Part shown: positions 38,491 through 63,130 of the stretch, piece by piece
How positions within the stretch are numbered: position 1 is the stretch's first letter
Layout of the letters: each line of letters opens with the position of its first letter
Source: Streptomyces akebiae
GTDB lineage: Bacteria; Actinomycetota; Actinomycetes; Streptomycetales; Streptomycetaceae
Length of the DNA: 64,000 bases
Assembly: GCF_019599145.1 (NCBI RefSeq)
Contig: NZ_CP080647.1
Location: 4,092,001 to 4,156,000 of the forward strand
Direction of reading: 5' to 3'
Notes under the pieces: model-generated
Seen by the model: only the letters and a program-made list of their open reading frames with translations
Databases searched by the model: none
Told to the model about the DNA's origin: nothing
Translations under genes and position numbers: made by a program

Positions 38491-39627
<1,137 letters not shown>

Positions 39628-39785: not shown

Positions 39786-40520
39786 TCAGAGCGACCGGCG
39801 GTGGGTGGGGGCGGGGGTCGGAGGGCGGGTCACGGCCGCGGTGTGGCGGGCCGCGAGGACGTGGGTGTGTGCCGGGGTCGCGGTCGTCGACCTGAGGCGG
39901 GACGCGACCGAGGTGGGCATGCCGGCGCCGCGGGCGAGGTCGGCGGCCACGGCGGAGCGGAGTGCGCCGAGCCGGGCCGGCCGGCTGCTGCCACGCTCCG
40001 GGGTGAGCGCTCCTACGTCGGCACTCAGCGCGGCCCGTACGGCTCCGGGGTGCGTCGGGATGGGGGCGGCGCCCTTCGCGGGGGCGCGGGAGGGGTCGAG
40101 GCCTGCGGAGCGGAAGGCCGCGGCGCGGGCGCTGAAGGGGGCGGCGGCTCCCGGCTCGGTCGCGGTCGTACGGCGGTGAGGGGTGCCGGACGCGCCGACG
40201 GTACCGGGGGTGCCGTCCTGGGCGGTCGGTGCGCGTGTCGGGCGGACGAGGGTGCGCCAACTCACCGTGCCGGTCAACTCGTTGACGGTGACCTCGACTC
40301 GGGGACGCGGTCCGGGGTGGTGTTCGGTGGACGTCGGGGAGAGGGAGCGGTGGCGGGCCGCGCGGGACCGGTCGGTCGGGCGGTGGAGCGCGCCGTCGGG
40401 GGCGCCGGGTACGCGGCCGGAACGTCCGAGCGCGCCGTCGGGGACGCCGGGTACGCGGCCGGGGCGAGGGCGGTGGTGGCCTCGGGTGGGGTCGCTGGGA
40501 TAACTGGGGTTACTGGCCAT
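39786..40520 (-). CDS. Pro/Ala/Arg-rich protein coupled to the TPR gene, unknown
   Basis: 244 residues starting MASNPSYPSDP. Its ATG lies inside the last codons of the TPR-like gene (overlap 40510-40520), which indicates translational coupling. Near the N-terminus a short repeat (GRVPGVPDGALGRSG and GRVPGAPDGALHRPT) is visible, and a central hydrophobic patch VEVTVNELTGTVSWRTLVRP stands out. The rest is low-complexity Ala/Arg/Pro. No domain is recognised. The overlap and the nearby start argue for a real gene, but composition alone does not. Confidence 0.5.
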   Translation of the reverse strand: MASNPSYPSDPTRGHHRPRPGRVPGVPDGALGRSGRVPGAPDGALHRPTDRSRAARHRSLSPTSTEHHPGPRPRVEVTVNELTGTVSWRTLVRPTRAPTAQDGTPGTVGASGTPHRRTTATEPGAAAPFSARAAAFRSAGLDPSRAPAKGAAPIPTHPGAVRAALSADVGALTPERGSSRPARLGALRSAVAADLARGAGMPTSVASRLRSTTATPAHTHVLAARHTAAVTRPPTPAPTHRRSL

Positions 40521-43071
40521 GGGCGTAGGGGGCGGAGTCGAGGGCGCGGGCCCGGTCGGTGAGGCGGGTCATGCGGGTGCGGGCCTTCTCCAGTTGCTCC
40601 AGGTCGTCGGCGGCGGGGCCCGCGTCCGCGGCGAGGTCGGTCCAGACGGCGATCAGGTCGCGGCCCAGGTGCAGACCCTGAAGCGGGTCGCGGACCGCCC
40701 GCCAGGCGGCCGCCGCGCTCTGGATGTTGCCGTACGCGGCACGCTGGTCGCGCATGCGGTGGCGGAGACCGGCGAGGTCGAGGGAGAGGTGGAACGAGCG
40801 GAGGGCGTCACCGGCCAAGTAGGCGATGTAGGCGGTGAGTTCGCGGAGTTTCAGGACCTCGGGGTGCTGGGGGCCAAGCGTCGCCGTCGCCTGTGCGACC
40901 GTCTGCTCGGCCATCTCCGCGGCTTCCTGGATCCGGCCCAGTTTCACGGCCTCGTTGATGCGCGAGACGGGCTCCGCGAACGGTGACGGGGTGCCACCGT
41001 CCTCCGCCGGGTCCAGCACCGCCTCGGCCACCGCGTCGAACTCCCGTACCGGCGCGGGTTTCGGCGCGGTGTCCTCCTCCAGCACCTTCCACTCGGGGGC
41101 GGAGTACGCGTCGGACGCGGACTCCGCCGGAGGGGCCAGGGTGGCGGGGGGTGCGGGTTCCGGGGTGGGGGCGGTGGGCTGCGGGTGGATCGGCATCGGG
41201 GCCGGTCCCGGAGTCGGAGTCGGCGGCCAGGGCTGGGGTTCCAGCGAGGCGGGCCCGGACTCCGGGGTGGGACCCGGGGACGGGGTGTGTGCCGGCTCCG
41301 GGGTGGGGGCGTCGGTCGGGGCCGGGGGCCACGGCTGCGGGTTCAGGGAGGCCGGGGCCGAGCGGGGGGTGCTGGTCGAGGGCTGGGGCGGGGCTGCGGC
41401 CCGGTCCTGGTGCCAGGACGGGGAGGCCGTCCCGATCGGGGGCGGTTCGGGGTCCGTGAGCGGGCCGAACTCGCCGGTCGGGGGCGAGACGGTGCCGGCG
41501 GCCGGGGCGAGGTCCTGGGCGGGCTCGGGTGCCGAGGGTCGGGCCTCCGAGTCCACCGGGACGCCCGGCAGGGTGAGGGGGAGGCCCGGGGTGCGCGGTG
41601 GCCGCGCCAAGGGTCCGTCCTGCGGCTCCGGCACCGCGCGCAGCACGAACGTCGACGGAACGACCCCGCCCGACGCCGGCTGCGACGCGTCGCCCTGGTC
41701 GACACGTTCGCCCTGCTTCTCCTTCGCCGCCGTGAGGGGCATCGTCCGCGGCTGCGGCTTCACGGGCTGCGCCGCAGGCTGCGCGTGGGGCGCTGCGGCC
41801 GACTCGGGTGTGGGCGCGTTGGTGGACGAGGCGTGGTTCGGGGCGGGTGAGGGTGGTGGGGGTTCGGTGGCCTGCGCGCGGGCGGGCGGGGGCTCTGCGG
41901 GCGCGGGCGCGGGCGTCGGGTCGGCGAAGGGCCCTGACGTGGGCTTCGCCGCCGTCAGCGGAAGGGTGCTGGGCTCTCGCTTCGGGCGCTCGGGCTCCGG
42001 GGTGGAGGCGACCGGCTCCGCCGAGGGCGCCGGGTCGCCCGCCGCCAACCGCATCGTGCTCGGCTCCCGCTTCGCCTGCCCCTGAGGGTGCGACTGCGAC
42101 TCCGGCCGCGCGTCCGGCCGTACATCGGGCTGGGCGGTCGGCTGCGGCCGGTGCTGCTCGGGGTGCGCCGAACCCTCCGGCCCTGCCTGAGGCTGCCACT
42201 CCTGCTGCACCTCGGGCTGGGACGGAACCTGGGCCGGGGCCTGCCCGACCGACCGCGCCTGCCACTCGGCCGACCGAGCCCGCGGCTCACCGACCTGCGG
42301 CTCCCGCCCGGACTCGCCCTGCTGCTGCCAGCCGCTGCGAGGCTGCTGCTCTCCGCCGCCGTGTGGCTGCCACTCGGCCGGAGAGCGGCGCTCGGCGTCC
42401 GTCTGCGGCGCCCGCCCGGGGTCGGCCTGCGCGTGCTGTTCGGGGCGGGGCTGCCAGTTCGGGTCCTGGTGAGGGTGTGCCGAGGTGTGAGCCTGCGGGT
42501 GTGCGCCCCGCGAGTCGCCCTGTTCCTGCGGGAGTCGGCCCGTGGCCGCCGACTCCGGCACCGCGCGCAGCACATGCGTCGACCTGTCGCGACGCGGGGC
42601 CTGGGCCGGGGCCGAGGCAGGCGGTTCCGGTGCTGTCCACGCGTCCGTGCCCTCGCCGAGGTGGGCCGGCGCGGCCATGCCCGGCGCGATCCGCTCCTCC
42701 CCCTCGCGTACCGCCGCGCCCTCGCGCACGGCTGGCGCCCCCTCTGCCGCGAACCCCCTCGGCTCGCCCACCCGCACCGGCTCGCCGGCGTAGTGGCTGG
42801 AGCCGTCGACGTGGATCCGGAGGGGGACGACGTAGCCGATGCGTTCGTCGTGGACGGTGGCGAGAACGGGATGGCCGGTGGCGAGGGCCAGGCGGTGGAG
42901 GTAGTCGAGGGCGGCGCTCTGGAGGGACTCCCCGGCGGCCGGCGGTACCGGCATGCCGCCGACCGTCGCACCGGCCTCGGCCGAGACACGGACGTCGATC
43001 GGGGTGAGCCCGGCCGGCACACGTCCCGCGCGCTTGAGTTCCCGCTTCTGTTCGCGGCTGAGTCGAGTCAT
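40510..43071 (-). CDS. Large protein with disordered middle and TPR-like C-terminus
   Basis: 853 residues from ATG 43071. Residues 1-110 are globular (VPAGLTPIDVRVSAEAGATVGG, then LATVHDERIGYVVPLRIHVDGS). About 110-690 are a Pro/Gln/Ala/Glu-rich linker with repeated PSTM/PSTL-type motifs (KREPSTMRLAAGDP, KREPSTLPLTAAKP). Residues 690-853 look helical and TPR-like, with GRIQEAAEMAEQTVAQATATLGPQHP and LRELTAYIAYLAGDALRS. No signal peptide is seen, so it should be cytoplasmic. It lies seven bp after the lipoprotein gene and overlaps the next ORF. Confidence 0.75.
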   Translation of the reverse strand: MTRLSREQKRELKRAGRVPAGLTPIDVRVSAEAGATVGGMPVPPAAGESLQSAALDYLHRLALATGHPVLATVHDERIGYVVPLRIHVDGSSHYAGEPVRVGEPRGFAAEGAPAVREGAAVREGEERIAPGMAAPAHLGEGTDAWTAPEPPASAPAQAPRRDRSTHVLRAVPESAATGRLPQEQGDSRGAHPQAHTSAHPHQDPNWQPRPEQHAQADPGRAPQTDAERRSPAEWQPHGGGEQQPRSGWQQQGESGREPQVGEPRARSAEWQARSVGQAPAQVPSQPEVQQEWQPQAGPEGSAHPEQHRPQPTAQPDVRPDARPESQSHPQGQAKREPSTMRLAAGDPAPSAEPVASTPEPERPKREPSTLPLTAAKPTSGPFADPTPAPAPAEPPPARAQATEPPPPSPAPNHASSTNAPTPESAAAPHAQPAAQPVKPQPRTMPLTAAKEKQGERVDQGDASQPASGGVVPSTFVLRAVPEPQDGPLARPPRTPGLPLTLPGVPVDSEARPSAPEPAQDLAPAAGTVSPPTGEFGPLTDPEPPPIGTASPSWHQDRAAAPPQPSTSTPRSAPASLNPQPWPPAPTDAPTPEPAHTPSPGPTPESGPASLEPQPWPPTPTPGPAPMPIHPQPTAPTPEPAPPATLAPPAESASDAYSAPEWKVLEEDTAPKPAPVREFDAVAEAVLDPAEDGGTPSPFAEPVSRINEAVKLGRIQEAAEMAEQTVAQATATLGPQHPEVLKLRELTAYIAYLAGDALRSFHLSLDLAGLRHRMRDQRAAYGNIQSAAAAWRAVRDPLQGLHLGRDLIAVWTDLAADAGPAADDLEQLEKARTRMTRLTDRARALDSAPYAHGQ

Positions 43072-43078
43072 CGTTCCC

Positions 43079-43918
43079 TCACTCGGGTCGGGCAGAAGGA
43101 GAAGAAGAAAGAGGAGCTGTGGGGGTGGCGGCTGAGGCCGGGGTGGACGGGTCCGGTGTCGGTATCGCTGCCTCCACCGTACGCACCTCGTCCACCCGCC
43201 ACGGCTCGCCCTTGCCCGAGCGCACCAGCTTCACGTACACCGTGGCCTGAGGGCCGGTTCCCGTCCAGCCGTCGCGGCCGTGTGCCGTGCCGTCGACGAA
43301 GAGGGCACGGTAGGCGTCCCTGGCCGAGTCGGAGGGCGCGTCCCCGTCGTCGTCCGGTTCCACGTCGACCGTGGTCCACGCCTTGTGCGCGGCCCAGGAG
43401 TTCCACTGTTCACCGGCGCCGCTCGCGGGGCGGTACGAGCGTTCGGCCTTCGCCTTGGCGGCGGTGAACCAGCGCGCGGAGCGCAGGACGGCGTCGTGCG
43501 GGCCCGTGTCGTACTTGGTGTCGTAGCCGTACGCGACCTCGGTCCAGGCCTCGGCCACGGCGGTCGCGTCCGTCTCGTCGACGCCGGTGGGGCTCGGGAC
43601 GTGGGCGTCCGGGCCGAGCGATTTCCCGGAGGGGAGGGGGGCCTTGGGGGTGAAGGGCGGTTCGGACGTGGCCGTGGAGCCGCCCGCCGTCTCGCGGTGG
43701 TCCTCCAGGCCGCAGGCGGTGAGGACGGCCACACCGGTCACCGCCGCGAGCACGGCCACGCCCGCCCGCCGGACCGCGCCGGCCCGCCGGACCACGCCGG
43801 CCCGCCGGATCAGCCCGCCACCCGTTCCGTGCCGCGCACCGGGCACGTGCGGTCCGCCCGGGACCCGCGCTTCCCCGCGCGTGTCACGCTCCTCGCGCCC
43901 CCCGCGTGCATCACGCAT
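43079..43918 (-). CDS. Lipoprotein with VirB8/NTF2-like candidate domain
   Basis: About 279 residues from ATG 43918, with GTG 43927 as an alternative. An arginine-rich N-terminal stretch precedes a hydrophobic segment and the lipobox AVLTACG. The mature domain (AVAEAWTEVAYGYDTKYDTG to WRVDEVRTVEAA) resembles the NTF2-like fold of actinobacterial conjugation proteins such as TcpC, which replace VirB8 in Gram-positive systems. This assignment rests on pattern only. It is placed between the wall hydrolase and the TPR-like gene. Confidence 0.65.
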   Translation of the reverse strand: MRDARGGREERDTRGEARVPGGPHVPGARHGTGGGLIRRAGVVRRAGAVRRAGVAVLAAVTGVAVLTACGLEDHRETAGGSTATSEPPFTPKAPLPSGKSLGPDAHVPSPTGVDETDATAVAEAWTEVAYGYDTKYDTGPHDAVLRSARWFTAAKAKAERSYRPASGAGEQWNSWAAHKAWTTVDVEPDDDGDAPSDSARDAYRALFVDGTAHGRDGWTGTGPQATVYVKLVRSGKGEPWRVDEVRTVEAAIPTPDPSTPASAATPTAPLSSSPSARPE

Positions 43919-44022
43919 CGTGTTCACCCTCGTTCCCCTCCTCACCTCAGTGTCCTGCCCCGTCGAACCGGTCGTCCACGCCGAACGGCGGTTCCGTGCC
44001 GCCCACTTCGCCCTGCTCACCA

Positions 44023-45057
44023 CTACAGCCCCAGCCACGGCGCCGGATTCACGTAGGCCCCGTTCTGCTGCACCTCGAAGTGGAGATGGGCGCCCGTCGA
44101 GTAGCCGGTCGAGCCGACGAGGCCGACGCGTTGGCCGACCTTGACCTTGTCGCCGACGCCGACGTTGAGGCCGGACAGCATGTGGTTGTAGGTGGTGGAG
44201 ATGGTGTCGCCGTTGATGGTGCCGTGGGAGATGACGACGCGGTTGCCGTAGCCGTTGCTCCAGCCGGCGAAGGTGACCTCGCCGTCACGGGCGGCGAGGA
44301 CCGGCGTGCCGGCGGCCGCGCCGAAGTCGATGCCGGTGTGGAGTTTGCGGACCCCGAGCGTGGGGTGCATGCGCCAGCCGTACGGGGAGGTCACGGGCGG
44401 GTTGCCGGGGAGCGGCATCGCCATCTCCCGGCCGGCCGGGAGCTTGCCGGGCGGGTCGTCGACCGACTCGTACTTGGAGATCAGGGACTTGATGCGGGCG
44501 ACGTAGTTCTGGGTCTCGGTGTAGGGCGGGATGCCGCCGTACTTCTGCACGGCTCCCGGACCGGCGTTGTACGCGGCGAGCGCCAGGTCGAGGGTCTCGC
44601 CGGTCGCCTGGCCGCTGTCCTTGTAGCCCTGGACCTGCTTGGCGAGGGCACAGTCGTAGCGGCCCTGGGCCATGATCGCGTCGCCGGGGTCGTACGGCGA
44701 GACACGGCCGTTGCCGTCGTCGTCCTTGCCCCAGCTCGGCCAGGTGCCGGGCATGAACTGGCTCAGCCCCTCGGCGCCGACCGGGGACTTGGCGTTCGGG
44801 TTCCAGCCGGACTCGGCCTCGATCTGCGCGGCGATCACCGCCGGCTTGATGACATCGCACATGGCGCCGGCCTTGAGCACCCACGGCACGTACTCGGCGG
44901 GCACCTGGCCCGACTTGAGGCCTCCCCCGACGCCCTGCTCCTCGGCCTCGGCATCGCCGCCGCCGCTCACCGCGACCATCATGACCACCGGCATCATCAC
45001 GGCAGCCACACAGCCGCCGACGACCCAGGTCGTGACGGACCCTCCCCCGTTGGACAT
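44023..45057 (-). CDS. Bifunctional lytic transglycosylase / M23 endopeptidase
   Basis: 344 residues with one N-terminal membrane anchor (TWVVGGCVAAVMMPVVMMVA). The SLT domain (about 65-215) has AAQIEAESGWNPNAKSPVGA with the catalytic Glu82, GLSQFMPGTW and AALAAYNAGPGAV-type LALAAYNAGPG. The M23 domain has SPYGWRMHP, HTGIDFGA and HLHFEVQQNG, carrying the zinc ligands. It can cut both glycan and peptide parts of peptidoglycan. This is the classic Gram-positive VirB1-like component that opens the wall for a secretion channel. The Shine-Dalgarno GGGGAG precedes the ATG. Confidence 0.93.
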   Translation of the reverse strand: MSNGGGSVTTWVVGGCVAAVMMPVVMMVAVSGGGDAEAEEQGVGGGLKSGQVPAEYVPWVLKAGAMCDVIKPAVIAAQIEAESGWNPNAKSPVGAEGLSQFMPGTWPSWGKDDDGNGRVSPYDPGDAIMAQGRYDCALAKQVQGYKDSGQATGETLDLALAAYNAGPGAVQKYGGIPPYTETQNYVARIKSLISKYESVDDPPGKLPAGREMAMPLPGNPPVTSPYGWRMHPTLGVRKLHTGIDFGAAAGTPVLAARDGEVTFAGWSNGYGNRVVISHGTINGDTISTTYNHMLSGLNVGVGDKVKVGQRVGLVGSTGYSTGAHLHFEVQQNGAYVNPAPWLGL

Positions 45058-45390
45058 CTGCTCCCCTCAGCGTCGAAGCGGCGGGACGACGAAGTTCCGT
45101 CATGCTCCTGCCACTTGGGTCCAGTCAGACGAGTCTCGCCGCTCACCCCCACTCCACGCGTCACCGGTGCGTCACAGGCTCGTCGCAGGAACTCACGTCC
45201 CGATTCCCAAGCCGCCCGTACGCCGTGAAGATCGGGGGTGGGCGTCGCGCCGGGCACGCAACGGCGGCGGGCACCCCGCCGGGTGCGACGGGCGCCACGG
45301 GCTCAGGAAGACTGCGACGAGCGGACCGCGCCGAGCGGACCGCGTGATCAGCGGCGGAAACGGGGAGTGGTGGAGAGCGGTGATGCGGTG
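45058..45390. other. Divergent control region of the secretion-like cluster
   Basis: About 330 bp separate the minus-strand hydrolase gene from the plus-strand string. It contains no supported gene and must hold both promoters; no clear -10/-35 pair stands out. CCGAGCGGACCGCG direct repeats (GCGGACCGCGCCGAGCGGAC) occur near 45330. Confidence 0.4.
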
Positions 45391-45915
45391 ATGCGGCCGG
45401 ACACGGGACAGGCGGCGGCCGGGCCGGAGATCTGGGTGCGCGGTCCGGTGACGGAGCCGGAGGCACGGCCGCCGGATCCGGCGCCCCTGGCGGCGGCGAG
45501 CACGCGACGGTTCTCCTGGGTGGCCACGCACGGTGGCGCCGGGTCCACCACCCTCGCGACGGTCTTCGGCGGTCATGACGCGGGCCGCAACTGGCCGCGT
45601 CCCGACCAGGGCGAGCCGGGCTCGGTGCTCCTGGTGGGGCGCACGCACGCCGCCGGGCTCGACGCGGTCTCGCACACCCTGGACATCTTCCGGCGGGGCG
45701 ACGCGCCGCCGGGGCTCGACCTGGACGCGATCGTGCTGGTCGCGGACGCGCCCGGCCGGCTGCCCCGGCAGCTGGCGCAGCGCGTGAAGGTGATCGGTTC
45801 CGTCATAGACGTCTACCGGGTGCCCTGGGTGCCCGCCTGGCGCACCGGCGATCTCACCGGCCCGCCGCCCCGGGAGAGCGCGGCACTGGCCCGTCTGACC
45901 GGGAGGACCCCATGA
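45391..45915 (+). CDS. DUF6668-like protein with degenerate P-loop
   Basis: About 174 residues; starts at GTG 45370, GTG 45388 or ATG 45391 are all possible. The segment FSWVATHGGAGSTTLATVFGG sits where a ParA/MinD-type deviant Walker A motif would be, but has no lysine. LLVGRTHAAGLDAVSHTLDIF and DAIVLVADAPGRLP follow as in a Rossmann-type NTPase with the Asp strand. It may be an inactive ParA-like scaffold. Its TGA overlaps the next start (ATGA). Confidence 0.7.
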   Translation: MRPDTGQAAAGPEIWVRGPVTEPEARPPDPAPLAAASTRRFSWVATHGGAGSTTLATVFGGHDAGRNWPRPDQGEPGSVLLVGRTHAAGLDAVSHTLDIFRRGDAPPGLDLDAIVLVADAPGRLPRQLAQRVKVIGSVIDVYRVPWVPAWRTGDLTGPPPRESAALARLTGRTP

Positions 45916-46172
45916 GCAGCACCCTGTACGCCGCCGCCTCGACACTGGCCGGGCCTCCGGCCGTGGTCACCAACGAGCTCAACTACGTACTGAACATCCT
46001 CGCCTGGCTGGTCACCGCGGCCGGTGTGTGCGGGCTGCTGATCGTGGGCTCGCGGATGGCCATCTCGCTGCGGTCCGGGGAGGGCGACGAGCATCTCAGC
46101 CAGTTCGCGGTGGTCATGGGCGCCTGCATCATCGGCGCGACGGCCGGACCGATCGTGGGGTTCGTGCTGTAG
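45912..46172 (+). CDS. Small VirB2/TrbC-like membrane protein, copy 1
   Basis: 86 residues. A short N-terminus is followed by two hydrophobic helices (YVLNILAWLVTAAGVCGLLIV and FAVVMGACIIGATAGPIVGFVL) joined by the loop RMAISLRSGEGDEHLS. This two-helix layout with a small basic loop is that of VirB2/TrbC-type pilin precursors, without their long leader. It is closely related to the product of 46863-47159. The start overlaps the preceding stop and has GGGAGGA upstream. Confidence 0.75.
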   Translation: MSSTLYAAASTLAGPPAVVTNELNYVLNILAWLVTAAGVCGLLIVGSRMAISLRSGEGDEHLSQFAVVMGACIIGATAGPIVGFVL

Positions 46173-46206
46173 GGGGACGCCGAGCGGGACACCGGGCGGA
46201 AGACAG

Positions 46207-46249
46207 GGCGACGGCCCGCCGGTTCACGGGGAACCGGCGGGCCGTCGCC
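46207..46249 (+). terminator. Strong hairpin after the first VirB2-like gene
   Basis: Arms 46207-46225 and 46231-46249 are perfectly complementary over 19 bp (GGCGACGGCCCGCCGGTTC and complement) with a five-base loop. It lies 34 bp after the stop codon and should end or reduce transcription before the second copy. Confidence 0.75.
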
Positions 46250-46312
46250 GTGTCTTCGGGCGGCTTCGGCCCTGCCTGACGGCTCCCGCCGTGGCTTCGG
46301 GCGGCTTCTGGA

Positions 46313-46399
46313 GCGTCTTCAGGCGGCTTCCGCTGCGTCTTCAGGCGGCTTCCGCTGCGTCTTCAGGCGGCTTCCGCTGCGTCTTCAGGGGCTTCCGCC
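46313..46399. repeat. 22-bp tandem repeat between the two VirB2-like genes
   Basis: Units beginning GCGTCTTCAGGCGG start at 46313, 46335 and 46357 and are identical over 22 bp; a fourth of 21 bp starts at 46379. Related GGCTTCCGCCGTG stretches flank it to about 46440. Two copies of a CGACCCCGCCGCGCGAGGAC unit follow at about 46490-46540. The whole 690-bp spacer (46173-46862) contains no supported gene. Confidence 0.88.
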
Positions 46400-46862
46400 G
46401 TGGCTTCAGAAGCTTCCGCCGTGGCTTCGGGCGGTTTCTCGTAACGCGCGGGTACGCACCCGTCGTGCACCGAGTCGCAGCCCCGACGCACGACCCCGCC
46501 GCGCGAGGACACACGACCCCGCCGCGCGAGGACGCGCGGCCCCGTCGCACTTGGACACGTCGTCCTCTTCGCACACCGGTGCGATGCCCTCCACTTAGCC
46601 GCAGGTCCCGACGTTTCTGACGGATCGTCACTGTCCCGGACATGACGAGGAGTTCCCGTCTGTCACGAGCACGTCACCGACAGGTGCTGGATCACTACAT
46701 CGCTTGGTTTCGGCTCACAGCAGTCGCCAAGCTCACAGGGCGACCGGGAACCCGGGCACGTCACGCCGGCCCCGGAAACGACCCAATGTCCCATCCGCTC
46801 ACATCGGTCGACATCGTCCCGCCGCCCACGGCGGGACGGCCGAGACCACGGGGAGAAACCAC

Positions 46863-47159
46863 ATGCTGCACGCGATAGCCGCCAAGGCTCATCAGTCCGT
46901 CCTCCTGGCCGACGGCACGGTCCCCAACCCCAACCGCGACGCTCCCGCCGAACTCACCGGCAAGGTCGACACCGTGCTCGGCATCGTCGCCTGGGCCGGC
47001 ACCGCCGCCGGCGTCGCGGGTGTGCTGATCTGCGGCGCCATGATGGCGATCTCCATGCGCCGCGGCGAGGGCTCGGAGCACATGGGCCGACTCGGCATGG
47101 TCCTCGGCGGCTGTGTCCTGGTCGCCACCGCCGGCCCGCTCGTGAACTTCGTCTTCTAG
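46863..47159 (+). CDS. Small VirB2/TrbC-like membrane protein, copy 2
   Basis: 98 residues from ATG 46863 (GGGAGAAACC upstream). It has the same two-helix plan as copy 1: VLGIVAWAGTAAGVAGVLICG, loop MMAISMRRGEGSEHMG, then LGGCVLVATAGPLVNFVF. The N-terminus is 12 residues longer (AKAHQSVLLADGTVPNPN). The two copies share the spacing R-x-G-E-G-x-E-H before helix two. They are probably pilin-like or channel subunits. Confidence 0.77.
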   Translation: MLHAIAAKAHQSVLLADGTVPNPNRDAPAELTGKVDTVLGIVAWAGTAAGVAGVLICGAMMAISMRRGEGSEHMGRLGMVLGGCVLVATAGPLVNFVF

Positions 47160-47190
47160 TCGTCCGAGCACGTCGAAAGGGGGAGCGACG

Positions 47191-48000
47191 ATGCTGAACT
47201 CCGGCCGGGCCCACGGGGGCAGCGGAGAGTGGGAGCAGCCGTTCTGGCAGCAGCGGGGCTGGATCCTGTCGGCCGGGTTCCTGGCGGTACTGCTCGTCCT
47301 CGCCGTGCTCTTCGCGGTGACGGGCAACGGCGGCGAGGGGTCTCCCGGCGCGGCCGGCGATCCGGACCCGGCACCGACCTCGACCTCGGACACGGGCTCC
47401 GACAGTGGCTCGGACTCCGACGGCGGTGCGGACGGTGCCGGCGGTTCGGACAAGCGGCCCGCCGGGTGCCGCACCGACGACCGCGACCAGGCGGAGCCCA
47501 CCGAGGCGCCGCGCGACTTCCGCTGGAAGGCCAACGGCACCGGTCTGGTCCCGGTCTCCAAGGCGGCGGGCCCGCTCACGTACGACGGTCCGGTCTGGTC
47601 CTGCTTCGCCCACACCCCGCTGGGCGCCGTCATGGCGGTCCACTCCATCACCGACCACCTCAGCTACGACGGCTGGCGCGAGGTCGTCGACCGGCAGGTC
47701 GTGCCGGGCGCGGGCCGCGACGCGCTGATCGCGAGCCGCTCCCAGGAGGCGAACAAGTCCACCACGGGCTCGCCGGACGCCGGCGGCTACGCCGGGTTCA
47801 CGGTCCTGTCGTACGACGAGACACAGGCGACCGTGATGGTCCTGGTGCGCGGCATGGGCGACGGCGGCTACGGCTCCGCCTCGGTCACCGTGCGCTGGCG
47901 GGACGGCGACTGGAAACTCTCGCCCGACCCGGACGGCACGGTCTACAGCGGAGTGTCGCAGGTCAGCGGCACCGACGGCTTCGTCACCTGGGAGGCGTGA
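47191..48000 (+). CDS. Membrane-anchored protein, VirB8-position candidate
   Basis: 269 residues. Residues 1-22 are hydrophilic (EWEQPFWQQRGW), 25-45 a single TM helix (ILSAGFLAVLLVLAVLFAVTG), then a Gly/Ser/Asp-rich linker, and about 90-269 an extracytoplasmic domain with one cysteine pair (AGCRTDDRD and VWSCFAHTPLG). Short N-terminal cytosolic part plus one helix plus a globular outer domain is the VirB8 layout, but no sequence signature is recognised. It is followed after one base by the VirB6-like gene. Confidence 0.72.
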   Translation: MLNSGRAHGGSGEWEQPFWQQRGWILSAGFLAVLLVLAVLFAVTGNGGEGSPGAAGDPDPAPTSTSDTGSDSGSDSDGGADGAGGSDKRPAGCRTDDRDQAEPTEAPRDFRWKANGTGLVPVSKAAGPLTYDGPVWSCFAHTPLGAVMAVHSITDHLSYDGWREVVDRQVVPGAGRDALIASRSQEANKSTTGSPDAGGYAGFTVLSYDETQATVMVLVRGMGDGGYGSASVTVRWRDGDWKLSPDPDGTVYSGVSQVSGTDGFVTWEA

Positions 48001-48001
48001 G

Positions 48002-49183
48002 ATGGCCTGCTCCTGGAAGCTCTACGACTGTGTGATCGAAGAGGGCGGCAAGCAGTTCACCGAGGGGGCCGTGGTCGTCTTCGCCAAGGCGATCGGCGAC
48101 GGCGCGGCGGAGGTGCTCAAGGCGCTCAACGGCGTCTGGCTGAACATCGACGTGAAGGACCCGACGGGGAACGGCGGCGGCCACGGCCAGGCGACCGCCG
48201 GCAGTCCCATCGGTCAGATCACCGCGGAGGTCAACTGGATCGTCGCCTATGTCGCGGTGGCGTCGTTGCTGCTGGCCGCGATCAGGATGGCCGTGGACCG
48301 CAAGGGCCAGTCGATGCGACAGGCGTTCATGGGGATGTGGAAGGTCATCCTCGTCGGCGCGGCCTCCGTACCCGTGGTCACGGCCCTGATGAAGGCGTCG
48401 GACGCGTACGCCAAGGACGTCTACGCGAGATCGAACCTGGGTGACAAGGCCGCCGAGATGCTGGGCGTGCTGACGCTCAACCAGCCGGGTCTGGTGCTGA
48501 TCTTCGGTCTGCTGGTCATGCTGTCGAGCTTCGTGCAGATCGTGCTGATGTACATCCGCATCGGTGTCCTGATCATGCTGGTCGGCACGCTGCCGCTGGC
48601 CGCCGCCTCCTCGATGACCGGGTGGGGCGAGGGCTGGTGGAAGAAGCACATCGGCTGGCTCGCGGCCTGGCTGCTGTACAAGCCGGCGGCGGCCCTGATC
48701 ATCTACTCGGCCACCGCGATGACCAAGGACACCAAGGACCTGAACCAGGTGATCGCGGGCATGGGCATGCTGATCATGGCGGTCTTCGCCCTGCCCGCCC
48801 TGCTCAAGCTGATCGTCCCGGCCACGGCCGCCCTCGGCGGTACCTCGGGCGGCACGGTCGCCCTCGGCGCCGCCAACAACATGGCCTCCGGCGCGGTCAG
48901 CATCGCCGGCAGTGCCGTCGGCGCGGCCGGTCAGTCGGGCGGCGGCGGGGGCGGCGGTTCGACGGGCCCCCAGGGCTCACCCTCCTCGGGCGCGGGCGCC
49001 TCCGCGGGCGGTGCGGGTGGCGCCGGCGCTGCGGCCGGTACCGCCGCCGCGGGAGCGGCCACGGCGGGCGCGGCCGTCGCGGTCCAGGCCGCCGCCGTCG
49101 TCGTCCAGACCGGTATGCAGGCGGCATCCGAGGTCGCGGGCTCCCTGGACGACAACGACGGGATGAAGGGCCACAACCAGTAG
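48002..49183 (+). CDS. VirB6/TrbL-like polytopic membrane protein
   Basis: 393 residues. It starts MACSWKLYDCVIEEGGKQF, then has about six hydrophobic helices between 65 and 300 (IVAYVAVASLLLAAIRMAV, WKVILVGAASVPVVTALM, LVLIFGLLVMLSSFVQIVLM and others). The central part with WWKKHIGWLAAWLLYKPAAAL matches the TrbL/VirB6 pattern. The final 95 residues are Gly/Ala-rich. VirB6 forms part of the inner-membrane channel. A long hairpin follows the stop. Confidence 0.82.
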   Translation: MACSWKLYDCVIEEGGKQFTEGAVVVFAKAIGDGAAEVLKALNGVWLNIDVKDPTGNGGGHGQATAGSPIGQITAEVNWIVAYVAVASLLLAAIRMAVDRKGQSMRQAFMGMWKVILVGAASVPVVTALMKASDAYAKDVYARSNLGDKAAEMLGVLTLNQPGLVLIFGLLVMLSSFVQIVLMYIRIGVLIMLVGTLPLAAASSMTGWGEGWWKKHIGWLAAWLLYKPAAALIIYSATAMTKDTKDLNQVIAGMGMLIMAVFALPALLKLIVPATAALGGTSGGTVALGAANNMASGAVSIAGSAVGAAGQSGGGGGGGSTGPQGSPSSGAGASAGGAGGAGAAAGTAAAGAATAGAAVAVQAAAVVVQTGMQAASEVAGSLDDNDGMKGHNQ

Positions 49184-49184
49184 G

Positions 49185-49230
49185 GCGCTCCTGGGGGAAA
49201 GAGGCCGCAGGCCCTTTCCCCCAGGAGCGC
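49185..49230 (+). terminator. Hairpin between the VirB6-like and SCO6880-type genes
   Basis: Arms 49185-49201 and 49214-49230 (GCGCTCCTGGGGGAAAG and complement) are perfect over 17 bp and start two bases after the TAG. It may act as a partial terminator within the string. Confidence 0.65.
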
Positions 49231-49250
49231 GGGGAACTGCGCGAGCGACC
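49224..49250. repeat. Dispersed intergenic repeat copy (inverted orientation)
   Basis: Core GAGCGCGGGGAACTGCGCGA continues into CGACC, the reverse complement of the copies at 30095 and 31718. It overlaps the right arm of the hairpin just described. Confidence 0.7.
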
Positions 49251-49336
49251 ACGACGGACCCGCAGCCACCGAGCGACCGAACACCCCGAGCTCGTAGGCA
49301 GGGGAAACCAGCGAACTCAGCCGGAAGAAGGAACCC

Positions 49337-50830
49337 ATGTCCACCGACGCCCTCACGCGTCCCACCTACGGAAACTGGCGTCGCCCCCGCCGCCCCGGCC
49401 TCGGTCCACTCGGCCTCCTCGGCACCGTCGTGGCCTTCGGCGGACTCCTGGTCGCTCTGCTCGCCTCGCTGGTCTCTCTGCTGGCCGCGATCCTCGTCCT
49501 CATCCCCCTCGGCCTCTTCCTCGCGCCGCTCGCGCTGCGCACGGTGGACGGCCGCAACATCTACCAGGTGGTCGCGGTGCGTATCGGTTGGCTCAGGCGC
49601 AAGGCGAACGGCTCCACGACGTACGTCTCCGGCCCGCTCTCCAAGCGCCCCGGCGGCCGTTACCAGCCGCCGGGCCTGCTGGCCCGCACCAAGATGTACG
49701 AGGGCCGGGACGCGTACAACCGCGCCTTCGGGGTGCTCCACCACCCCGGCCGCAACCTCTGCACGGTGGTCCTGGCCTGCGAGCCGGACGGCGGTTCGCT
49801 GGTCGACCCCGAGCAGGTCGACATCTGGGTGGCGTCCTGGGGTGACTGGCTCTCGCGGCTCTCGCACGAGCCGGGCCTGCGCGGCGCCCAGGTCGTCGTG
49901 GAGACCGCGCCGGACACCGGGACGCGGCTGGCGGCCGAGGTGCTGCCGCGCATCTCGCCGGACGCCCCGGCGGCGGCCCGCGCCGTGATGGAGGAGGTCG
50001 TCGCGCGCTACCCGTCCGCCTCCTCCGAGATGCACACCTACATCGCCCTCACCTACGGCCCCACCGGCGGCCCCAAGCGGGACGTCGAGGACGTCATCAC
50101 CGACCTGTCCATGCGGCTGCCCGGCCTGCTGTCGGGCCTGGTCGCGGCCGGCGGCGGCTCCGCGTACCCGCTCTCCGCCGACCGGATCGCGGAGATCGTA
50201 CGGGTGGCCTACGACCCCGCCGTCGCTCCCGATGTGCTGAGCGCCCGTGCCGAGCAGACGACCACGGGCCTCGACTGGTCGGACGCGGGCCCGGCGGCGG
50301 CCGTGGAGTCGGTGCAGGCGTACAAGCACGACTCGGGGGTCTCGCGGACGTGGATGCTGACGCTGGCGCCGCGCGGCACGGTCCGCTCCAGCGTGTTGCG
50401 TGGCCTGCTGGAGCCCGCGTCGGGCACCCGCCGCAAGCGGGTCTCGCTGGTCTACCGCCCGATCGACCCGGCGACCTCCGCCCGCATCGTCGAGGCCGAC
50501 CGGCGTGCCGCGCACTTCATGGCGGGCTCCAAGCGGGGACTGGTGCAGGCACGGGCCAGTTCCGAGATGCAGGCCGCAGAGCAGACGGCGGCGGAGGAGG
50601 CGGCGGGTGCCGGGCTCGTGGAGTTCTCGCTGATGGTGACGGTCACCGTGGACAGCGAGGAGCAGCTGCCGGACGCGGCGATCACCGTACGCAACCTCCA
50701 GGCGTCCTCGCGCATCCTGATGCGTCCCGCCGACCGTATGCAGGCGTCCGCGTTCACCTGCACGCTCCCCGTCGGCCTGCTGCCGTGGGAGCACACCCTC
50801 GTTCCGTACCAGATCCGGGAGGCGCTGTGA
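49337..50830 (+). CDS. SCO6880-type T4SS protein (VirB3/PrgI plus VirB4 N-terminal region)
   Basis: 497 residues. The first 75 hold two adjacent hydrophobic helices (LGLLGTVVAFGGLLVALLAS and ILVLIPLGLFLAPLAL) as in PrgI/VirB3. The rest, from GWLRRKANGSTTYVSGPLSKRPG to QASAFTCTLPVGLLPWEHTL, is the region that in VirB4 lies before the ATPase domain. No P-loop is present; the ATPase is encoded by the next gene, which starts in an overlap (GTGA). This split arrangement is known from actinobacterial loci annotated SCO6880 family. Confidence 0.85.
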   Translation: MSTDALTRPTYGNWRRPRRPGLGPLGLLGTVVAFGGLLVALLASLVSLLAAILVLIPLGLFLAPLALRTVDGRNIYQVVAVRIGWLRRKANGSTTYVSGPLSKRPGGRYQPPGLLARTKMYEGRDAYNRAFGVLHHPGRNLCTVVLACEPDGGSLVDPEQVDIWVASWGDWLSRLSHEPGLRGAQVVVETAPDTGTRLAAEVLPRISPDAPAAARAVMEEVVARYPSASSEMHTYIALTYGPTGGPKRDVEDVITDLSMRLPGLLSGLVAAGGGSAYPLSADRIAEIVRVAYDPAVAPDVLSARAEQTTTGLDWSDAGPAAAVESVQAYKHDSGVSRTWMLTLAPRGTVRSSVLRGLLEPASGTRRKRVSLVYRPIDPATSARIVEADRRAAHFMAGSKRGLVQARASSEMQAAEQTAAEEAAGAGLVEFSLMVTVTVDSEEQLPDAAITVRNLQASSRILMRPADRMQASAFTCTLPVGLLPWEHTLVPYQIREAL

Positions 50831-52341
50831 GCACGCGCGCAGCTGAAGGTTCCGCAGGTCAGACACGTCCCACACGTCCCGTACGGCCTCAGGTGGCGCC
50901 CCCGCGGGGGTGGTTCGGCCCCGGCGGCGGCCAGGTCGGGCATGTCGACCCGCCCGCGCTGTGGCGGGCCACGACGGTCCAGGCGTGCGGTCTGTGGCCC
51001 TTCGCGGCGGGTTCCGGCGCCCCCATGACCGGGGTGCCGCTCGGCCAGCACCTGCACACGGGCGCGACGGTCTGCGGCGACCCCATCTCCTGGTTCACCC
51101 GCGCCCGTTACATCTCCAACCCGTCGCTCTTCATGCTGGGGATGCCGGGCCTCGGCAAGTCCACCCTGGTCAACCGCATGCTGATCGGCATGGCGGCCAC
51201 GGGCATCACCCCGCTGGTCCTCGGCGACCTCAAGCCCGACTACGCCGACACCGTCCGGGCGCTCGGCGGTCAGGTGATCTCCATCGGGCGCGGGGTGGGC
51301 GGCATCAACGTCCTCGACCCCGGCGCGATGGGCGAGGCGGCGCTCCGGATCGGCGGCGAGCGGGGACGGATCCTGGCGGCGGAGGCGCACGGCCGAGTGC
51401 TGAACATGGTCGCGGCGCTCATCACCATCGTCCGGGGCCGCCCGATGGACGACCACGAACAGTCGGTGCTGTCGGCGTGCCTGCATCACCTGACGGAACG
51501 TACGAAGCCGGGCCGGGCCCCGCTCCTGCCCGACCTCCTGAAAGTGCTGGACGAGGGCCCGGACCGGGTGCGGGCGGTGACCCTCGACCGGGGCGACGTG
51601 GCCCGCTACCAGGAGGCGGTGGACCCACTGCACCGCTCCCTGCTCGGTGTGCTGGACGGCCCGCTCGGCGACACCTTCGCCTCCGAGACCTCCACCCGTA
51701 TCGACCCGGCGTCGCCCGCCGTCTGCGTCGACATCTCCCGGATCGGCGAGGCGGACACACAGCTCACGGCGGCGGCGATGCTGGCGGCGTGGTCGGACGG
51801 CCTCGGCACGGTCGCGGCGGCCCACGCGCTCGCCGACGCGGGCCTCGCACCGCAGCGCTGGTTCTTCACCGTCCTCGACGAACTCTGGCGCCCCCTGCGG
51901 GCCGCCTCCGGCATCGTCGAACGCATCGACGCGCTCACCCGCCTCAACCGGTCCCTCGGGCTCGGCGACGCGAAGATCACGCACACGTTGAAGGACGCGG
52001 AGGCGCTGGGCAGCGAGGCGGACCGGGCGAAGGCGCGCGGCTTCGTGGAGCGGGCCGGGATGGTGGTGTGCGCCGGGCTCCCCCGTACGGAGATGCGGGA
52101 GCTCGGCGAGATCGTCGGTCTGTCGGAGCGGGAGATCGACCTCGTGTCGTCGTGGTCGTCACCGCCGGGGTGGGCCAGCACGGGGGGCAACGAGGAGCCG
52201 CCCGGTCGTGGCCGGTTCCTGATCAAGGTGGGCGGCCGGCCCGGGATCCCGATCAAGGTGTCGATCACGGACACGGAGCGGGAACTCCACAACACGAACA
52301 CGAGGTGGACGCCGACGCTGTCGAAGGGTGGGCGTGTGTGA
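50827..52341 (+). CDS. VirB4-like ATPase
   Basis: 504 residues from GTG 50827. Walker A is GMPGLGKST at 105-113, followed by LVLGDLKPDYADTVRALGGQ. A Walker B candidate FFTVLDELWRPLR lies near 350. The Glu-rich downstream region LGLGDAKITHTLKDAEAL is family-like. A proline-rich N-terminus (RPTRPVRPQVAPPRGW) precedes the core. VirB4 powers assembly and substrate transfer in T4SS. It pairs with the product of 49337-50830, with which its start overlaps. Confidence 0.87.
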   Translation: MSTRAAEGSAGQTRPTRPVRPQVAPPRGWFGPGGGQVGHVDPPALWRATTVQACGLWPFAAGSGAPMTGVPLGQHLHTGATVCGDPISWFTRARYISNPSLFMLGMPGLGKSTLVNRMLIGMAATGITPLVLGDLKPDYADTVRALGGQVISIGRGVGGINVLDPGAMGEAALRIGGERGRILAAEAHGRVLNMVAALITIVRGRPMDDHEQSVLSACLHHLTERTKPGRAPLLPDLLKVLDEGPDRVRAVTLDRGDVARYQEAVDPLHRSLLGVLDGPLGDTFASETSTRIDPASPAVCVDISRIGEADTQLTAAAMLAAWSDGLGTVAAAHALADAGLAPQRWFFTVLDELWRPLRAASGIVERIDALTRLNRSLGLGDAKITHTLKDAEALGSEADRAKARGFVERAGMVVCAGLPRTEMRELGEIVGLSEREIDLVSSWSSPPGWASTGGNEEPPGRGRFLIKVGGRPGIPIKVSITDTERELHNTNTRWTPTLSKGGRV

Positions 52342-52399
52342 GCTTGGGGGGTTAGGGGTGGGGGCCTTGGGGTGGGGGGCCGGTTCGTGTGCGGGTGCG

Positions 52400-52582
52400 G
52401 GTGCGGGTGCGTGGGGCGTCTCGCGCAGTTCCCCGCGCGCCTGAAGACCAGGCCCCTGCGGGCCTGGAATGGCCCAGCGGCCTGAAAAGCGGCGTCGGCT
52501 GCGGGAGGAAAAGCACGGGGCGCAGCCCCGGCTTTTCAGGGGCGCGGGGACTGCGCGAGAAGCCCCACGCACCCGCATCCGC
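52400..52582. repeat. Inverted pair of dispersed repeats in the 364-bp gap
   Basis: The left copy (about 52400-52440, core TCTCGCGCAGTTCCCCGCGC) and the right copy (about 52541-52582, core GCGCGGGGACTGCGCGAGA) are inverted relative to each other and include matching GTGCGTGGGGC/GCCCCACGCAC extensions. Between them are GGCCTGCGGGCCTGG-type small palindromes. The whole 52342-52705 gap contains no supported gene. Confidence 0.8.
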
Positions 52583-52705
52583 CATCGCACCGCACCCCCC
52601 ACCCCATCAGGCGCCCCCGGGGGTCGAAGGGGCACCGCCCCTGGGGACGGGACGGGTAGGGGCGGCGGGGGCGAAGAAGAACTTCGATCAGACGGGGGAA
52701 CAGAG

Positions 52706-54457
52706 ATGGCCACACGCAAGCAACCACACACCACCACCGACGACCTACTGCCCTGGATCATCCCCGGCACCGCCCTGCTCATCGGCACCCTCTTCCTCAC
52801 CGCCTGGCTCGGCGGCACCCTCGCCGCCGCCCTCACCGGCGCCGGCTGGCACCCACCCCCCTTCACCCTCACCACGATGAAGACCCTCGTCACCGACGGC
52901 CCCGCGGCCCTCTGGCCCACGACCTCCTCCGGCACCCTCACCGCCGGCATGGGCACAGTCCTCGGCGGCGCCCTCACCCTGTTCATCACCCCCGTCGTCC
53001 TCGTCCGCCGCCGAGGCAGGAAGCCCAGCGGCCTCGCGGGCCGACGCGAACTCTCCGCCCTCCTCCCGAAGGGCGCCGCCGCCCGCGCCCGCCAACTCCG
53101 CCCGTCCCTCCCCAGGTCCGGCAAACTCCCGCCGGACGAGACGGGCAACCTCCTCGGTGACCTGGAGCCCGGCGGCCCCGAACTCCGCAGCAGCTACGAG
53201 GACGTGGAACTGGACCTGATGGCACCGAGGGCCGGCAAGTCCACCGGCATCGCCGTGCCCCGTGTCCTGCGCGCCCGCGGCAGCGTGCTGCTGACGTCGA
53301 ACAAGGCGGACGTGTACAGCGTGACCCGGGCGGAACGCGAACGCGCTGGCAGCGTCTGGACGTTCGACCCGCAGGGCATCGCGCACACCCCGCGCGGCCT
53401 GTGGTGGGACATGCTCGCCGACGCGGCCACCATCGAGGGCGCCCGCCGGCTGGCCGGCCACTTCGTCGGCGCGGTCAACGACGACGCCTCCAAGCGGGAC
53501 TTCTGGATCTCGGCTGCCCAGAACACGCTCACCGCGCTCTTCCACGCGGCCAACCGGGGCGAGCGGCAGATCGGCGAGGTGCTGTCGTGGCTCGCGGACC
53601 CGGCCGACCGTACGCCCGTCGACCTGCTGCGCGACGCGGGCATGGCGGCCCTCGCCGACCAGCTCCAGGGCACCGTCCAGGGCGCGGTGGAGACCCGCGA
53701 CGGCATCTACGAGACGGCCCGCCAGTGCGTGGCGTGCCTGCTCGACCCGACGATCGCGGCCTGGGCGAGCCCGGACCCGGGGCTGCCGCAGTTCCTTCCC
53801 GAGCGGCACGTGCTGTCCCGCGACACCCTCTACCTGCTCTCCAAGGACGGCGGCGGCTCGGCCGCCGGTGTCATCGCCGCGTGCGCCGACTCCGTCCTGC
53901 GCGCGGGTGTCGTGGCCGCCGAACGGATGGGCGGGCGCCTGGACCCGCCGATGACGGCGGTGCTGGACGAGGCCGCCAACGTCTGCCGGATCTCCGACCT
54001 GCCCGACCTCTACTCCCACTTCGGCTCGCGCGGCATCAACGTCGTGACGCTGCTCCAGAGTTACCGCCAGGGCACCCGGGTGTGGGGCGAGGCCGGGATG
54101 GACGCGCTGTGGGGTGCCGCGACCATCAAGCTGCTCGGCGCGGGCCTCGACGACGCGGACTTCGTGGAGAAGGTCTCGCGGCTGGTCGGCGAGCACGACG
54201 TGTCGACGGTGAGCTACTCCCGCGGCAGGGACGGGCGTTCCCGCTCCACCTCGTACCGCCTCGAACGCATCCTGCCCGCCGACCGCATCCGCGCCCTCCC
54301 CAAGGGCACCGCCCTCCTCCTCGCCACCGGGGTCAAGCCCGCCCTGGTCCGCCTCCGCCCGTGGTACGCCGAACCGGGCGCCGACCGCATCGCGCTGGCC
54401 GCCCAGGCCGAGGTCAAGGCCATCACGGCGAGGGCGACGGAGAGGATCGCCCGATGA
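52706..54457 (+). CDS. VirD4/TraG-like coupling ATPase
   Basis: 583 residues from ATG 52706. Two N-terminal TM helices (14-42 and 79-100) anchor it. Walker A is MAPRAGKST at 172-180 and Walker B is MTAVLDEAANVC. SNKADVYSVTRAERERAG and RGINVVTLLQSYRQG are typical of TraG/VirD4-type coupling proteins that bring substrate to the channel. Conventional Streptomyces plasmid transfer uses a single FtsK-like TraB instead, so this is a different machine. It overlaps the following 27-codon ORF (ATGA). Confidence 0.9.
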   Translation: MATRKQPHTTTDDLLPWIIPGTALLIGTLFLTAWLGGTLAAALTGAGWHPPPFTLTTMKTLVTDGPAALWPTTSSGTLTAGMGTVLGGALTLFITPVVLVRRRGRKPSGLAGRRELSALLPKGAAARARQLRPSLPRSGKLPPDETGNLLGDLEPGGPELRSSYEDVELDLMAPRAGKSTGIAVPRVLRARGSVLLTSNKADVYSVTRAERERAGSVWTFDPQGIAHTPRGLWWDMLADAATIEGARRLAGHFVGAVNDDASKRDFWISAAQNTLTALFHAANRGERQIGEVLSWLADPADRTPVDLLRDAGMAALADQLQGTVQGAVETRDGIYETARQCVACLLDPTIAAWASPDPGLPQFLPERHVLSRDTLYLLSKDGGGSAAGVIAACADSVLRAGVVAAERMGGRLDPPMTAVLDEAANVCRISDLPDLYSHFGSRGINVVTLLQSYRQGTRVWGEAGMDALWGAATIKLLGAGLDDADFVEKVSRLVGEHDVSTVSYSRGRDGRSRSTSYRLERILPADRIRALPKGTALLLATGVKPALVRLRPWYAEPGADRIALAAQAEVKAITARATERIAR

Positions 54458-54537
54458 GGCCGCCGGGGGCCCGGCAAGTACGGCTGTACGTCTCCTCGTA
54501 CGTGCCGGAGAAGCTCGTCGAAGGGAGCAGTCGATGA
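54454..54537 (+). CDS. 27-residue coupled ORF
   Basis: The ORF starts at an ATG overlapping the coupling-protein TGA and ends in a TGA overlapping the DUF4913 ATG, so both junctions are ATGA. The product MRPPGARQVRLYVSSYVPEK continues LVEGSSR. It could be a micro-protein, or only a translated bridge that carries ribosomes to the next gene. The Shine-Dalgarno of the next gene lies within it. Confidence 0.45.
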   Translation: MRPPGARQVRLYVSSYVPEKLVEGSSR

Positions 54538-54953
54538 CCACCACCGCCGTCGAACAGCACAGTCCGGAACAGCCGCTCCCCGCCGTGGGCCCGCCGTTCA
54601 TCCTCTACCTCGACGGCGCCGAGTACGCCGAGGAGATGCACGGCCTGGCCGTCTGGGTCGGGGATCTGCTGCTCCCGGTCTACGGCCGCGAGGTCACCTC
54701 CCAGCAGCCCTGGTGTCCGCGCTGGTGGGAGCACCTGGAGGCGGTGGCCCGGCTGCACGCCCTGTGGCTGGCCTGGCAGGAGCTCACCGACCCGACGGCG
54801 GGCCCGTCGGGTCCGGCCGTGTGGCACCGCGACCACCTCGGGCCCGTCATGGCCGAACTCCGCTCCCCCGGCGGCCCGTTCGCGGGCTGCAAGGCGGGCG
54901 CCCACCGCGCGAAGCAACCGCCGACCGTGGAGCCGTACGGGACGGGGAGCTGA
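54534..54953 (+). CDS. DUF4913 protein
   Basis: 139 residues. The core LYLDGAEYAEEMHGLAVWVGDL, then WCPRWWEHLEAVARLHALWLAW, WHRDHLGPVMAELRSPGGPFAGC is the DUF4913 pattern. Members often occur beside plasmid-type or transfer genes in actinomycetes. It has no signal peptide or membrane segment. Function is unknown. It is the last gene of the plus-strand string. Confidence 0.85.
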   Translation: MTTTAVEQHSPEQPLPAVGPPFILYLDGAEYAEEMHGLAVWVGDLLLPVYGREVTSQQPWCPRWWEHLEAVARLHALWLAWQELTDPTAGPSGPAVWHRDHLGPVMAELRSPGGPFAGCKAGAHRAKQPPTVEPYGTGS

Positions 54954-59491: not shown

Positions 59492-59507
59492 GGCTCCCCT
59501 CGGGTAC

Positions 59508-63117: not shown

Positions 63118-63130
63118 AGAGGAATCCGCC

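Follow-up and report, generated by a model that had tools for sequence, protein, structure and literature searches.

A relaxase-free, type IV secretion-like locus at a conserved chromosomal site in Streptomyces that may export proteins

A 64,000-nucleotide stretch of the Streptomyces akebiae chromosome [contig NZ_CP080647.1, positions 4,092,001 to 4,156,000], here called the window, carries a near-complete type IV secretion system (T4SS) at window positions 39786-54953. The locus includes genes for a transglycosylase/endopeptidase (SLT/M23) protein, two VirB2-like proteins, a protein in the VirB8 position, a VirB6-like protein, a SCO6880-family protein with a separate VirB4, a VirD4 and a DUF4913 protein. 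We have high confidence that this is a T4SS-type machine, and it is best explained as a relative of the MOBP conjugation systems of actinobacterial plasmids that has neither the relaxase nor MobC. The reading preferred here, for which the balance falls close to even, is that it is a domesticated, relaxase-free T4SS that exports proteins. An original prediction, made for this stretch from its letters, had named the T4SS parts, and all were recovered where it had placed them by Pfam or NCBI family matches, tblastn or structure-model evidence; the DUF6668 gene was overlooked.

The machine genes are on the forward strand. A VirD4/TraG-like coupling ATPase is predicted from the gene at 52469-54457, with PF12696 (1.4e-31, the TraG match that the original prediction proposed as a check) and PF02534 (4.1e-18) both over cut-off, and a match to PF10412. 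VirB4 is split between a SCO6880-family protein (49337-50830; NF042935, 8.4e-163), corresponding to the VirB3/VirB4 N-terminal part, and a VirB4-like ATPase (50827-52341) with the Walker A motif GMPGLGKST, for which VirB4 family matches are weak (NF045975, 2.3e-9; NF045971, 1.2e-8) and far under the curated cut-offs. The VirB6/TrbL-like membrane protein (48002-49183) was assigned from position and distant similarity, 22% identity to CmdD (E = 8e-8) and 30% to its counterpart in locus L094, and gave no match in the Pfam scan. The protein in the VirB8 position, w7 (47191-48000), has a predicted transmembrane helix and NTF2-like domain; its predicted model shows an NTF2-like fold with a middling Z, and the best E of its sequence profile against the PDB was 0.042. 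Small membrane protein b (46857-47159) is VirB2/TrbC-like with a PF04956 match (3.5e-4) under the family cut-off, and protein a (45912-46172), which found no significant match in the VirB2 family scan, is considered VirB2-like from its tblastn cross-match with b. The last gene, at 54534-54953, predicts a DUF4913 protein (PF16259, 8.4e-29) that occupies the same position in relaxase-bearing plasmids.

Four genes are transcribed from the reverse strand. The w4 gene (44023-45057) predicts a VirB1-like transglycosylase fused to an M23 endopeptidase (PF01464, 4.3e-15; PF01551, 8.9e-31), and w3 (43079-44038) a lipoprotein-like protein with a lipobox-like LTAC, read by eye. The 853 aa w2 product (40510-43071) has a conserved N-terminal domain, a Pro-rich middle and a TPR-like C-terminal domain, with PF13424 (0.0053) under cut-off. 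The w2-like gene is doubled in L027, L157 and L182, with w1 between the copies in L182. The 244 aa w1 product (39786-40520) is a candidate secreted substrate with the C-terminal tail PTSVASRLRS...PTHRRSL.

The first forward gene, at 45391-45915, predicts a DUF6668 protein (PF20373, 5.4e-7) with a ParA/MinD-like predicted fold. The model has a mean pLDDT of 83.7, and the best PDB match was ParA 3cwq (E = 1.5e-3); Foldseek on this model and on that of w7 returned nothing at E <= 0.001. The Walker A motif of ParA is KGGxGKT. In the DUF6668 alignment, where many short rows stop before the region, the consensus HGGAGxxT replaces this lysine-bearing motif. The predicted fold resembles ParA, but the protein appears to lack the deviant Walker A lysines of ParA/MinD (VirC1-like) ATPases, which makes its use of ATP doubtful.

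No relaxase was found among the scanned locus proteins, and in this respect the locus does not look like a conjugative element. The original prediction of a chromosomal T4SS-like machine that has conserved flanking genes but no relaxase close by is borne out. Pfam matches to relaxase, integrase and rep families were likewise absent from the 20 reading frames between 36.4 and 58.6 kb that were scanned (a few of them spurious; VirB4 was scanned separately in the right frame), and the nearest tRNA gene, in a search for tRNA genes rather than edge repeats, is tRNA-Tyr at 14018-14100, ∼26 kb away. Genomes were tested with four relaxase families, PF03432, PF08751, PF03389 and PF13814, with MOBV, MOBT, MOBH and MOBC outside the test. 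In 10 locus-bearing genomes, S. scabiei included, these matched in 6, 2, 0 and 7, respectively. In the S. akebiae genome the nearest PF03432 and PF08751 matches are 1.2 Mb and 2.8 Mb away, and PF03389 and PF13814 were unmatched. An overlooked MOBP relaxase near the locus was sought by tblastn with the relaxase of plasmid relative L177, and none was found.

The order SCO6880-VirB4-VirD4-DUF4913 is shared with Streptomyces sp. NBC_01431 plasmid unnamed2 and with Miniimonas pS16-2, and VirB4 identities are 54-57%. In the NBC_01431 plasmid DUF6668 comes first, followed by three unnamed genes (sequences uncompared) at the VirB2, w7 and VirB6 positions. The plasmids differ in that MobC and a relaxase follow DUF4913, as seen in L177 (PF03432) and L179, whereas the window locus is chromosomal and has the SLT/M23, lipoprotein, w2 and w1 genes. 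PLSDB types the NBC_01431 plasmid as non-mobilizable despite its annotated relaxase. In L011, L012 and L178, which carry machines of clade B (below), the annotation of the stretches viewed includes no relaxase, although the L011 and L178 records are typed MOBP by PLSDB.

A search with VirB4 found 143 loci in reference genomes, of which 80 were kept, and 475 plasmid records. The 80 loci were sorted by gene identities and flanks into clades A1 (18), A2 (7) and B (55). VirB4 at >=80% identity was present in 22/200 Streptomyces genomes and at >=89% in 8/200, the S. akebiae genome being counted in both. Gene order is the same in related chromosomes, and in close relatives the locus lies at one site, between a gene for an M28 peptidase and amidase/ABC-transporter genes. 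In the window these are an M28 peptidase gene (38545-39579, forward strand; PF04389), which adjoins the locus and is also present in genomes without it (non-carriers), and an amidase gene (55393-56868, forward strand; PF01425), followed by a flavoprotein gene (56968-57597; PF03358) and ABC-transporter genes (57604-59548; ABC2). Right-flank ABC-transporter genes were found at 14 of the 18 A1 loci, some others ending at contig edges, and the M28 gene is directly left of the locus in 8 of 20 genomes checked (L013, L014, L015, L020, L021, L023, L029 and L037). M28 peptidases at E 1e-100 occur in 144/200 genomes, paralogues counted. The synteny check suggested with the original prediction thus gave one site in close relatives and a locus that is patchy, not core. 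The A2 loci are at other sites, with L038 and L060 followed by a gene that we take to be RpoC-like. Machines of clade B, with VirB4 at 80-88%, are found in chromosomes of Streptomyces and of the Micromonospora type and also on large linear plasmids, and 38 of 55 chromosomal B loci have close by a gene of a family judged by eye to be sigma-factor-like. To the right of the window locus, 8 kb away, a c-di-AMP riboswitch (RF00379) at 62917-63126 precedes a reading frame at 63131.

Twenty M28 neighbourhoods picked by high M28 identity comprised one carrier (L157), one that was cut short (L176) and 18 non-carriers. Flank order is kept in the non-carriers, some of which do not have the amidase or ABC genes. 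The DUF6668 gene was present at 16 of the 18 sites and a w2-like gene also at 16 (in L167 by tblastn only), while L165 and L170 have neither. The end domains of w2 share 52-66% identity with the w2 genes retained in non-carriers. In a second set of 15 non-carriers, which was chosen for having DUF6668 and so gives no frequency, w2 was found in 12, and two of the three misses are at contig ends. Across 200 Streptomyces genomes DUF6668 was detected in 63, 37 of which (counted by hand) have no VirB4 match at 1e-60; the pair must therefore be gone, or too diverged to see, in most species. Under the original prediction, a locus missing from most related strains would count as an ordinary mobile element. 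It is absent from most, yet because the flanks and mostly w2 and DUF6668 remain at the sampled non-carrier sites, this does not look like an ordinary element's way of leaving.

The core genes are under purifying selection. Across up to eight pairs of carriers, dN/dS was 0.03-0.08 for VirB4, 0.05-0.11 for SCO6880, 0.06-0.20 for the SLT/M23 gene, 0.09-0.26 for VirD4 and 0.10-0.25 for DUF6668. Values for the VirB6-like gene (0.07-0.41) and DUF4913 (0.17-0.43) extend higher, and those for the VirB2-like genes, w3, w7 and w2 reach maxima of 0.35-0.52, with w3 at 0.26-0.40. For w1, dN/dS was 0.31-0.67 and in-frame stops were absent from 9 homologues. Core-gene values far under 1, together with the same order in related chromosomes, indicate that the locus is more than chance.

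The machine has been lost at least once. Non-carrier L185 retains, between w2 and DUF6668, a 66-residue relic of w3 that is 79% identical to that of carrier L024; the flank tree joins L024 and L185 as sisters (support 1.0), and in the DUF6668 tree L185 branches inside the carriers (supports 0.85-0.94). A single ancient loss was considered but finds no support, because the 9 carriers and 33 non-carriers of the flank tree are intermingled, L019 grouping with L186/L187 (0.999) and L025 with L170 (0.96) as well as L024 with L185. However, all non-carriers other than L185 form their own group in the DUF6668 tree, and repeated loss alone is therefore not the whole story. Old divergence, recombination (allelic replacement) or gain in some lineages are possible.

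What the machine moves, left as unknown by the original prediction, is narrowed by genes found in sister loci. Toxin-like genes were counted in 17 A1 loci (the window, L157, L181 and 14 of the 18, leaving out the truncated L016, L017, L018 and L022), with FolD, zeta and GT4 identified by Pfam and further copies by tblastn. At least one gene of the zeta-toxin, FolD-like (THF dehydrogenase) or GT4-conflict type is present in 9/17 A1 loci, 5/7 A2 loci and 0/55 B loci. These genes are mostly right of VirD4/DUF4913, and in L038 and L060 zeta genes are inside the machine operon, left of SCO6880. Small partner genes, p90, p152 and p382, are upstream of the toxin-like genes at spacings of -4 to +13 bp in the six pairs measured. 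A lipoprotein gene of unknown family is found without FolD, zeta or GT4 in another five A1 loci and in one of clade A2, and the window, L020, L021 and L076 have neither. Counting that lipoprotein as cargo, which would give 14/17 A1 loci, was dropped, as it had no Pfam scan and is beyond other flank genes in L029 and L037.

FolD, zetaA and w1 share a C-terminal tail. The motif A[AGS][RK]LR, first seen by eye and counted afterwards, is 37-56 residues from the C-terminal end and is followed by a Pro-rich stretch, often with a final Arg. Within the last 95 residues it occurs in 20 of 1332 coding-like open reading frames (ORFs) from 21 A1 and 7 A2 loci, and 17 of the 20 are w1, FolD or zetaA; in B loci it was found in 12 of 2563 ORFs, seemingly chance or shadow ORFs. 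By family, the strict motif is present in 7/9 FolD, 8/8 zetaA and 8/15 w1 tails, with close variants such as AARMR and AARLT in w1 tails that do not have it. Shuffling the w1, FolD and zetaA tails gave the motif in 0.03-1.3%. When a profile of the tail was searched against six carrier genomes, w1 or FolD at the T4SS locus was among the matches (E = 9e-15 to 6e-3); in six non-carrier genomes the best was 0.0076 and two gave no match. Homologues of w1 were found by tblastn only in loci of T4SS-bearing genomes, and in 0 of 33 non-carrier neighbourhoods (not whole genomes).

If proteins are exported, w4 would open the wall, and the VirB2-like, w7, VirB6-like, SCO6880 and VirB4 proteins would build an energised channel to which VirD4 would recruit protein substrates via the C-terminal tail. 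The candidate substrate in the window is w1; for sister loci the proposed substrates are the FolD-like, zeta-kinase and probably the GT4 enzymes, with the small partner encoded before each acting as an immunity protein, antitoxin or chaperone. DUF6668, VirC1-like by analogy, and w2 may carry the substrate to the machine, which would probably serve to deliver it on contact to adjacent hyphae or bacteria. A more specific proposal, that a Streptomyces T4SS injects tailed zeta, FolD-like and GT4 toxins into neighbours as a contact-dependent antibacterial system and that w2 and DUF6668 are a fossil module left after loss of the channel, is possible but appreciably more doubtful than protein export as such.

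Several observations weigh against protein export. Export, like the role of the tail, is inferred from sequence, and VirD4 and DUF4913 are parts that a DNA-transfer machine also needs. The window has no toxin gene beside VirD4, FolD, zeta and GT4 are all missing from 8 of the 17 A1 loci, and the zeta genes may simply be toxin-antitoxin pairs of the usual kind. The strict motif is missing from 3/3 GT4, 2/2 zetaB, 2/9 FolD and 7/15 w1 tails, the tails are of low complexity, and the shuffle frequencies are biased because the motif was noticed by eye before it was counted. Three top profile matches (G038 FolD, G103 w1 and G000 w1) are rows of the profile and the others share w1 homology, so the profile shows where the tail is located and not its role; the best match in carrier G183 (0.0056) is barely above the non-carrier noise. 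In S. scabiei 87.22 (L021:11455-11646) VirD4 and DUF4913 are gone, the other genes are kept and the amidase directly follows VirB4. The location of A2 loci at other sites indicates that the machine moved in the past.

A mobilisation helper, still moving DNA with a relaxase encoded elsewhere on a plasmid or integrated element, would account for the retention of VirD4 and DUF4913 and for a gene order like that of plasmids L177 and L179, where a MOBP relaxase and MobC directly follow DUF4913, and 9 of the 10 carrier genomes do match at least one of the four relaxase families somewhere. However, none of these matches is within 0.7 Mb on the same contig (those of G226, G227 and G230 are on other contigs), G183 has the full locus and no match to any of the four families, and tblastn with the L177 relaxase is limited, among the loci compared, to L177, L179 and weakly L005. 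DNA export also leaves the toxin-like genes without explanation, and we consider it unlikely. That hyphae exchange chromosomal DNA through the machine, importing or exporting it without a relaxase, is quite improbable. The model for it would be the archaeal Ced and Ted systems, domesticated chromosomal T4SS derivatives without a relaxase, of which Ted loci have a VirC1/ParA-like gene, DNA is the cargo and toxin genes are not mentioned in the excerpts of PMC9905601. The ParA-like predicted fold of the window DUF6668 fits such a system, but HerA-, NurA- and Rad50-like families were not found among the scanned locus proteins, and proteins as cargo are suggested by the toxin-like genes and the tails.

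A hyphal channel for sporulation and chromosome segregation, as proposed by comparison with cmdA-F (SCO4126-4131) of S. coelicolor, is supported by gene order, since the cmd order (105 aa, 288 aa, B6-like, SCO6880-type, VirB4, D4-like) equals that of the window, with the same split VirB4/SCO6880 and a chromosomal location. Deletions of cmdA-F impair sporulation and chromosome segregation, according to the available portion of PMC2782261. In the S. akebiae genome the CmdB Walker A pattern places this operon (L156) at 5.45 Mb, separate from the window locus, and only 22-26% identity is seen in four proteins, the window VirB4 being 22% identical to the CmdB-pattern protein; neither w4 nor DUF6668 is significantly matched among the L156 genes. 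The window locus is therefore ruled out as cmd itself, and sequence comparison makes the operon a distant paralogue of the window machine rather than its orthologue. Of 61 genomes, 52 have the pattern, that of S. akebiae included, whereas the window locus is patchy, which makes a core developmental role very unlikely. That the locus is what is left of a conjugative element that once integrated and is now decaying, with no present function, is just as improbable. The patchy distribution, the missing VirD4 in S. scabiei, the truncated lipoprotein gene in L185 and weaker constraint in w1, w2, w3 and w7 are consistent with decay, but low dN/dS in the core genes and complete gene sets in many species argue against the fixed remnant that the original prediction had entertained.

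The window machine is also not the sole such device of its host. In addition to the core cmd operon, the genome has three further VirD4-bearing loci, TraG-D_C (PF12696) matching at 1.40, 1.93, 4.15 (the window) and 4.64 Mb. An ICE-like region at 1.337-1.400 Mb (L007, L095) has a TrwC relaxase at 1.337 Mb and giant frames of 2969 and 3634 aa, and its split VirB4/SCO6880 is nearer to cmd (38-47%) than to the window. The T4SS-like L006/L093 at 4.63-4.66 Mb has a one-piece VirB4 (999 aa), TcpC, VirD4 and an SLT/M23/NlpC protein, and L006 also carries a GT4-conflict gene (51%), p382 (43%) and a zeta toxin (33%); the w2 N-terminal domain is matched at L093 (E = 1.6e-4). L006 was considered as the cmd locus and ruled out by the position of the CmdB pattern.

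Among known systems, the protein export proposed here would most resemble the antibacterial T4SS of Stenotrophomonas maltophilia and Xanthomonas in C-terminal recognition and neighbouring partner genes; the part of PMC8262851 available describes bacterial killing by the S. maltophilia system, effectors recognised by C-terminal sequences and adjoining immunity genes. The Streptomyces system differs in its tail and Gram-positive envelope. The T4SS of RP4 and R388 are reported, in excerpts of PMC11045733, to allow antagonism independent of cargo, and by analogy this is a possibility for the window machine. Among the literature titles listed, which are incomplete and no proof that the locus is unpublished, such a Streptomyces locus appeared only in PMC2782261; no matches were found for GT4-conflict or DUF6668, and one for SCO6880 in connection with type IV secretion.

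Conjugation in Streptomyces is usually seen as an affair of TraB, an FtsK-like translocase of double-stranded DNA that works without other known T4SS subunits, as described in the accessible text of PMC12857230. The site described here shows a secretion machine that was lost while two accessory genes stayed. If protein export is correct, a chromosomal, relaxase-free T4SS maintained by selection would be a contact-dependent weapon in this genus, and its tail would provide a testable signal for finding substrates.

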